Below, piece after piece: positions 5,949 through 6,232 of a DNA stretch of 33,975 bases; positions within the stretch are counted from its first letter, which is position 1; the number at the start of each line of letters is the position of its first letter. The notes beneath the pieces were generated by a model. The model saw only the letters and a list, made by a program, of their open reading frames with translations, did not search any database and had not been told where the DNA came from. A program made the position numbers and the translations under genes. The DNA comes from Fusobacterium mortiferum. Lineage in GTDB: Bacteria; Fusobacteriota; Fusobacteriia; Fusobacteriales; Fusobacteriaceae. Location: contig NZ_JACSNP010000019.1 in the NCBI RefSeq assembly GCF_016900045.1, positions 1 to 33,975 of the forward strand, written 5' to 3'.

Positions 5949-5970
5949 ATTATCCTCTCCCTTTCGAAAA

Positions 5971-5999
5971 ATAAAAAAAGCAGTCTGTTAGACTGCTTT
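5971..5999 (-). terminator. Attenuator terminator ahead of the NSS gene
   Basis: Minus-strand AAAGCAGTCT (5999-5990) pairs with AGACTGCTTT (5986-5977) around a 3-base loop, followed by seven T (5979-5973) and further T after one A. It lies between the leader peptide and the transporter start, with no coding gene ending here, so it is a conditional terminator in the 5' untranslated region. Confidence 0.9.
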
Positions 6000-6025
6000 A
6001 AAATACAAATTATCTGATTCCAATT

Positions 6026-6082
6026 ATCCCTATCTAAGAAATAATAGAACCACTTATTTTCTGAAGTTACATAGATAGAGAT
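6026..6082 (-). promoter_or_regulatory. Competing hairpins in the attenuator leader
   Basis: Two alternative pairings are visible on the minus strand. TACATAGA (6147-6140, codons 9-11 of the leader peptide) pairs perfectly with TCTATGTA (6075-6068, last codons and stop). The overlapping ATCTCTATCTA (6082-6072) pairs over 11 bp, with one G-U, with TAGATAGGGAT (6036-6026). They cannot form together. The 3' arm also contains TTAGAT, which could pair with GTCTAA in the terminator. This is the layout of a ribosome-position switch, inferred and not folded computationally. Confidence 0.6.
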
Positions 6083-6171
6083 ATGTTATCAATAGACAAA
6101 AGCCAATATCTAACATTTTTTAATTTATTATCTAAATTTTCTATGTAGCTCCACCAATATTGTACTCTCAT
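6067..6171 (-). CDS. Leader peptide rich in Tyr and Trp codons (34 residues)
   Basis: A 34-codon ORF, MRVQYWWSYIENLDNK at the start and NVRYWLLSIDNISLSM at the end, with an excellent ribosome binding site (AGGAGG, 7-8 bases before the ATG at 6171). It starts about 26 bases after the predicted transcription start. Three Trp (6, 7, 23) and three Tyr (5, 9, 22) in 34 residues, clustered as Y-W-W-S-Y and Y-W, are far above normal use. Its position between a strong promoter and an intrinsic terminator ahead of an amino acid transporter fits an attenuation leader peptide comparable in principle to TrpL or TnaC. I recognise no named family. Confidence 0.8.
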   Translation of the reverse strand: MRVQYWWSYIENLDNKLKNVRYWLLSIDNISLSM

Positions 6172-6196
6172 ATTGATAACCTCCTTTTCTTATATT

Positions 6197-6232
6197 TAGA
6201 ATAAGTATATTACAATTTTGTATAGTTGTCAA
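6197..6232 (-). promoter_or_regulatory. Promoter of the leader peptide-NSS operon
   Basis: Minus-strand TTGACA (6232-6227), 17 bases, TATACT (6209-6204); predicted start near 6197. The -35 and the spacer lie inside the last codons and stop of the HAD gene. Confidence 0.9.

Follow-up and report, generated by a model that had tools for sequence, protein, structure and literature searches.

A leader peptide with tandem tryptophan codons is a probable attenuator of tryptophan uptake genes in Fusobacteriaceae

Upstream of the gene for an NSS-family transporter in Fusobacterium mortiferum lies a short leader that contains an open reading frame (ORF) with two adjacent Trp codons and ends in an intrinsic terminator. 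The leader was found in a stretch of 33,975 nucleotides (contig NZ_JACSNP010000019.1, positions 1 to 33,975, hereafter the window). Based on comparison with related genomes and on folding simulations, it is very probably a ribosome-mediated transcription attenuator of Trp uptake that would sense Trp and act in the manner of TrpL. A preliminary description of the locus had proposed a leader-peptide attenuator that controls uptake, and the comparative evidence strongly supports that proposal. The anatomy of the leader, its conservation, its compensatory changes, and its predicted switching have been established here by computation.

All features described here lie on the minus strand, where the order is a HAD hydrolase gene, the promoter, the 34-codon ORF, the terminator, the NSS transporter gene, a gene for a 36-residue MetS-like protein, and tyrS. 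The promoter (6204 to 6232) is of the sigma-70 type, TTGACA-17-TATACT, matches the consensus at 11 of 12 positions, and is the top-scoring promoter within 5 kb. Its 17-nt spacing is identical in all 11 leaders of the family described below, each of which matches 10 to 12 of the 12 consensus positions. The ORF (6067 to 6171, MRVQYWWSYIENLDNKLKNVRYWLLSIDNISLSM) is preceded by the Shine-Dalgarno (SD) sequence AGGAGG (6180 to 6185), and it is the only one of the six SD-preceded ATG ORFs of 15 to 60 codons in the window that contains a Trp-Trp pair (WW). This pair, W6 and W7 (6151 to 6156), is the proposed sensing site at which a ribosome would stall; the Tyr codons of the same ORF are Y5, Y9, and Y22. 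The terminator (5971 to 5999) has its stem at 5999 to 5977, with a T tract to 5971, and its presence between leader and gene was confirmed. Thus the promoter, the ORF with its strong ribosome binding site (RBS), and the terminator stand as first described. The leader folds more stably than 200 of 200 shuffled sequences (z −4.1). A search of the same genome for other copies of the leader returned few near matches to TTGATAACATATNTC, and these were rejected, an exact second match and one more being apparently coding sequence.

With the transporter as query, close orthologs were collected from 61 genomes of the family, and the leader was found to precede the NSS transporter in six genomes of the genus. 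Four further species (genomes G024 to G027) were found with a covariance model of the leader; in these, the leader sits behind pdxST and before the gene for an oligopeptide-type ABC binding protein (PF00496, SBP_bac_5). A second model, run over 98 genomes of the phylum, added one leader from another genus (G030), located before the gene for a TrpX-like binding protein. The total is exactly 11 of the 98 Fusobacteriota genomes. An independent gapped pattern consisting of the RBS, WW, and TTGATAAC matches exactly the same 11 places, and its reversed control matches none. The three types of downstream gene are not homologous to one another and all serve uptake. Promoter, start codon, tandem Trp codons, reading frame, and terminator are kept in every one of the 11 leaders, and a search among them for relatives that retain the terminator but have lost the ORF or its Trp/Tyr codons found none. 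Weak covariance-model matches at three loci (L080, L096, and L097) were discarded as they are without the leader and terminator features, no such leader was found upstream of TrpX-like genes in 29 other loci fetched from the family, and the NSS orthologs of G025 to G027 have no leader and adjoin a tryptophanase-like gene. In the G018 and G019 leaders, the promoter spacer from the −35 to the −10 box contains a near-palindrome, AATTGTACAAATT, that might be an operator.

The preliminary description had left open whether Trp or Tyr is sensed. WW or WWW is present in 11 of 11 leaders and no Tyr position is invariant, and therefore the alignment supports Trp as the sensed amino acid, although this answer is provisional. 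G021 and G030 lack the Tyr codon that precedes WW; G022, G024 to G027, and G030 have Cys in place of the Tyr that follows it; and G021 also lacks Y22. The distance from the start codon to WW is 15, 24, 30, or 36 nt, in frame every time. The short ORF appears to be selected as an ORF: the SD is invariant in the 11 leaders (GGAGGTTATCAA does not vary across an alignment of ten leaders and is also present in G030), and insertions are multiples of three or are compensated by other indels. In G022, for example, two single-base indels cancel, so that the frame is kept at both ends and the middle is read differently. Outside WWS/N the peptide drifts and even changes frame, while the RNA pairing segments persist; segment 2 of the pairing scheme described below (GUUAGA or AUUAGA at its core) is read in another frame in G022 and G030 with its RNA sequence retained. 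Because the frame shifts while the pairing segments stay, the RNA is evidently kept for pairing and the peptide mainly for WW.

The pairing that competes with the terminator is formed by positions 6115 to 6099 with 5999 to 5986. Segment 2, its 5' strand (6099 to 6115, UGUUAGAU-AUUG-GCUUU), is located inside the ORF at codons 19 to 25, and segment 3 (5986 to 5999, AAAGC-A-GUCUAACA) consists of the 5' arm and loop of the terminator. The complementarity of the two segments is retained in 11 of 11 leaders. In the main antiterminator helix, 98.8% of the alignment cells are paired, compared with 18 to 47% for slid versions of the structure. Segment 2 is the best duplex partner of the terminator 5' arm in five of the six NSS leaders, G021 with its different terminator included, and likewise in G030. 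In the latter, segments 1, 2, and 3 have changed together, from UCUAAC/GUUAGA/UCUAAC to UCUAAU/AUUAGA/UCUAAU (C-G to U-A), as would be expected if segments 1 and 3 compete for segment 2. Double-sided compensatory changes are also seen within the terminator, in G021 and in the group of G024 to G027.

Two further pairings, mutually exclusive with the antiterminator and with each other, would hold segment 2 away from the terminator. Stem A, which encloses segment 2, pairs a 5' arm directly 3' of the Trp codons (6140 to 6152, GGAGCTACATAGA), where a ribosome stalled on these codons would cover it, with a 3' arm that spans the leader stop codon (6063 to 6075, TCTATGTAACTTC). The first hairpin of the preliminary description, 6147 to 6140 with 6075 to 6068, is part of this longer conserved stem. 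Its cells are paired at 93.3%, as against 25 to 58% when slid, two of its pairs show double-sided compensatory changes, and its covariation score was reached by none of 500 shuffles. The second pairing, P0, joins segment 1 (6171 to 6180, GTTATCAATA), which overlaps the RBS and the start codon, to positions 6094 to 6085 (P0 3' arm, TATTGATAAC). The RBS/start sequence GTTATCAA is paired with TTGATAAC in 11 of 11 leaders, with eight pairs unbroken, and this pairing also hides the leader's own RBS. In seven leaders segment 1 additionally holds UCUAAC/U near the start, complementary to segment 2, as an extension of P0.

The second hairpin first described, 6082 to 6072 (UAUCUCUAUCU(A)) with 6036 to 6026 (UAGAUAGGGAU), is present in the window and excludes stem A. 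It is strong only in G000, G020, G018, and G021, is weaker in the other relatives, and has no overlap with the terminator; it was accordingly rejected as the antiterminator, and is at most a bridge that brings segments 2 and 3 together. The full layout of attenuation claimed for the locus thus stands as far as leader, hairpins, and terminator are concerned, but neither hairpin touches the terminator, and the antiterminator had been missed.

To simulate ribosome-dependent switching, each transcript was ended at the terminator loop, so that the 3' arm had yet to be made, and was folded with positions −18 to +13 relative to the A site kept unpaired as the footprint of a ribosome. Without a ribosome, nine of 11 leaders have a predicted antiterminator probability of no more than 0.03, the exceptions being G019 (0.37) and G022 (0.74). 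A single stall at W6 or W7 raises the value from 0.00–0.37 to 0.61–1.00 in G000, G020, G018, and G019. The antiterminator is high for stalls at codons 4 to 9, with W6 at the maximum, and less consistently near codons 29 to 33, and it falls to zero when the ribosome is stalled over segment 2. When the region from the RBS to WW is masked, as by a stalled ribosome together with a queued or just-initiated one, the predicted value is 0.87–1.00 in 11 of 11 leaders. As a null, the stretch between mask and terminator was shuffled with dinucleotides preserved, 100 times per leader. The masked value was matched by 0 of 100 shuffles in G000 and in G019 and by 2 of 100 in G021 and in G024, and the gain of the masked over the free leader was matched by no shuffle in G000, G021, and G024. 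Taken together, conservation and simulation support the antiterminator.

We propose the following model. RNA polymerase would transcribe the leader and a ribosome would translate the leader ORF behind it. With charged tRNA-Trp plentiful, the ribosome would pass WW and finish the ORF, and the leader would fold as P0, in which segment 1 and the RBS pair near and with segment 2, or as stem A; either would hold segment 2 off the terminator, which would then form and keep the transporter off. With charged tRNA-Trp scarce, the ribosome would stall on WW and cover both the start region and stem A's 5' arm. The freed segment 2 (UGUUAGAU..GCUUU) could then pair with the emerging 5' arm of the terminator (AAAGC.GUCUAACA), allowing readthrough into the importer gene. 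In the longer leaders, a second ribosome queued at the start codon would cover segment 1. Whether high or low amino acid causes the stall, as in TnaC or TrpL, respectively, had been left undecided; the model answers, provisionally, that low Trp leads to stalling and readthrough.

Several observations weigh against this model. The antiterminator has one double-sided compensatory change, its other substitutions being mostly one-sided (A-U/G-U), and its covariation is not significant by column shuffles. The G022 leader is predicted to be antiterminated even without a ribosome and its shuffle null is weak (9 of 100), and the masked-minus-free gain is unremarkable in both G019 (16 of 100) and G022 (12 of 100). 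The finished terminator hairpin is predicted to beat the antiterminator at equilibrium, so the switch must be kinetic. At the Trp codons of longer leaders a single ribosome is insufficient in the simulations (up to 0.03 in G024 to G027 and 0.00 in G030), while in G021 a single stall gives 0.58 at W11 and at most 0.01 at W12 to W13; leaders with WW or WWW at codons 11 to 15 thus seem to require an extra assumption, the queued second ribosome. Finally, the gene that follows in the operon is tyrS, a possible hint at Tyr.

The regulated gene of the window encodes a 493-residue NSS-family transporter (PF00209, 4467 to 5948), putatively a Trp importer. It is followed by the gene for a 36-residue small subunit, MetS-like (PF16951, 4334 to 4444) and presumably co-transcribed, and, 70 nt after that, by tyrS (3040 to 4263), which may be co-transcribed as well. 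The latter gene is adjacent in four of the six genomes with an NSS leader; it is about 330 nt off in G021 and absent from this place in G022. Of the 17 clostridial and desulfobacterial loci that were inspected, 12 have the transporter ortholog immediately 3' of a gene of the tryptophanase type, and this linkage suggests Trp, or an aromatic amino acid, as the substrate. The TrpX-like protein of G030 (PF04392) scores 225 bits against NF041285, below the equivalog cutoff of 390. No trpB above the family cutoff was found in 12 of 12 genomes of the genus, which suggests that the genus consists of Trp auxotrophs. Tryptophanase (TIGR02617) had no match in G000, G020, G018, G019, and G022, that is, in five of the six NSS-leader genomes.

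A different kind of regulator gene was observed near leaderless orthologs. A YheO-PAS/HTH_22 gene adjoins the transporter or tryptophanase gene upstream of leaderless NSS orthologs at loci L007, L009, L010, L011, and L013, and likewise in Clostridia at L040, L045, L047, L048, L049, and L051; the assignment was confirmed by Pfam for L009, and similar sequences elsewhere were judged by eye. L007 and L009 have another PAS-type regulator gene downstream. The YheO-PAS/HTH_22 regulator probably provides catabolic control where the attenuator is absent.

The leader could alternatively be TnaC-like, with free Trp and the nascent peptide stalling the ribosome near the end of the ORF so that high Trp would induce the transporter for catabolism. 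Trp codons are present in the peptide, transporter orthologs elsewhere are linked to tryptophanase, and YW..SIDN near the peptide end bears what we take to be a faint resemblance to WFNID of TnaC. However, the second half of the peptide is its variable part and, with segment 2 read in other frames in G022 and G030, is not kept as a peptide; W23 is lost in G022, G024 to G027, and G030, and the C-terminal half ends in M or V with no terminal Pro before the stop codon. In addition, the terminator is intrinsic, five of the six NSS-leader genomes gave no tryptophanase match, and those NSS orthologs that stand beside a tryptophanase-like gene are without the leader. We consider this alternative very improbable.

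It is also quite unlikely that the same attenuator senses Tyr, or Tyr plus Trp. The Tyr codons Y5, Y9, and Y22 of the window's leader, some of them flanking WW, would fit such a role, as would the position of tyrS after the transporter and the presence of 6hni, presumably a tyrosine-binding protein, among the nearest solved relatives of the TrpX-like protein. Nonetheless, Tyr positions are lost in several leaders while WW is found in all, and the leader also precedes genes without tyrS. We give equally little credence to the view that nothing matters beyond the terminator and a small translated ORF, which would be either the gene of a conserved small protein that has its own terminator or a sensor of general translation rate. 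Conservation of ORF and RNA and the stability of the complete terminator, whatever the ribosome position, would be consistent with it, yet the amino acids outside WWS/N drift and change frame as the RNA pairing segments persist, the downstream genes all serve uptake and one is TrpX-like, and the simulated switch depends on ribosome position, being high for stalls in the WW region.

Building on the Trp-sensing attenuator, a broader hypothesis can be put forward, albeit as one that is doubtful at present: the leader may be a Trp attenuator module specific to Fusobacteriaceae that takes the place of the Firmicute Trp T-box and has been transferred among three uptake genes unrelated to one another, and its longer form may need two ribosomes, one stalled at WW and one queued at the start codon that holds segment 1 off segment 2. 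If the two-ribosome reading is true, the output would depend on the frequency of ribosome initiation as well as on Trp-tRNA charging.

Other leaders and RNA elements were noticed during the analysis. An NSS paralog (71–72% identical) in G030 and G033 is preceded by a different leader, MKKLNNNY(K/Q)KN...TFSWCWC-stop, with a terminator (loci L031 at G030:C13 and L032 at G033:C8), and at both loci the region that encodes WCWC can form a duplex with a segment farther downstream, which, when not so paired, invades the arm of the terminator. Masking at W20 or W22 frees the segment that pairs with the terminator arm, clearly so in G030; the G033 arm is for the most part paired even when no ribosome is present. 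The WCWC leader looks like an independent Trp (or Trp/Cys) attenuator, and if it is real, this transporter subfamily came under Trp attenuation on two separate occasions. At L126 of G021, some 230 nt ahead of the gene for an ABC binding protein, a Phe/Tyr-rich short ORF (FKSFYFFYYLYYFFIY) lies before a terminator; it could be a Phe/Tyr leader or merely AT-rich low complexity. The window itself also contains, on the minus strand, a lysine riboswitch (RF00168, 95 bits, 12837 to 12652) ahead of an amino acid ABC transporter operon (12480 to 10105) and a ribosomal protein L10 leader (RF00557, 69.8 bits, 31012 to 30868).

Among known systems, the present leader shares with the E. coli trpL type a short leader ORF with tandem Trp codons, an intrinsic terminator before the regulated gene, mutually exclusive pairings of segments 1:2, 2:3, and 3:4, and predicted readthrough on Trp starvation. 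It differs in that it would control uptake rather than biosynthesis, in its phylum, in the location of segment 2, which is part of the ORF and some 36 nt 3' of WW, in an off-structure that also hides the leader RBS, and in the distance of at least 100 nt between segments 2 and 3 in the window's genome; no sequence relation is claimed. With tnaC, the leader of the tryptophanase operon, it has in common a leader peptide related to Trp, placed ahead of genes that include one for a Trp permease, a putative one in the present case. TnaC, however, stalls on high Trp through residues of the nascent peptide and acts through Rho, features that the present leader does not share.

A functional counterpart is the Trp T-box. 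NSS transporters have been described under Trp and Phe T-boxes, those under Trp T-boxes in the B. cereus group (Wels 2008, PMC2494555), and trpXYZ/TrpX is under a Trp T-box in S. suis (Dresen 2022, PMC9382623). The same 2008 survey counted no T-box in its Fusobacteria/Thermotogae group (PMC2494555). In both systems, NSS transporter and TrpX genes would be switched by tRNA-Trp charging through a terminator, but a T-box binds the tRNA directly and has no ORF. The T-box model (RF00230) had no match in the window's genome; at the leader locus no known RNA family scored above its gathering score, and no T-box appeared even among the weak matches.

Leader-peptide attenuation has likewise been uncovered by comparative genomics for the His leader peptides of hisS paralogs in bacilli, among other leader-peptide systems (Naville and Gautheret 2010, PMC2965389), and for the cysS uORFC-8-2 system (PMC8632094). 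Before the report on Firmicutes, such systems were deemed known only in Proteobacteria and Actinobacteria (PMC2965389). As in the present case, those attenuators hop between genes, whereas amino acid, phylum, and sequence differ. We found no report of a leader-peptide attenuator in Fusobacteriota in the open-access literature. The mechanism class is known; what appears to be new to the open literature is the leader family, its phylum, and the group of uptake genes that it would regulate. If the proposal is true, it would place a leader-peptide attenuator in Fusobacteriota and offer a handle on Trp uptake versus supply in apparent Trp auxotrophs. An attenuator common to an NSS symporter, an ABC peptide-type binding protein, and a TrpX-like protein would also predict transporter cargo, linking the peptide-type binding protein to Trp supply. 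Control of Trp uptake by tRNA-Trp charging would then be exerted by the T-box in Firmicutes and by the ribosome in the leader described here.
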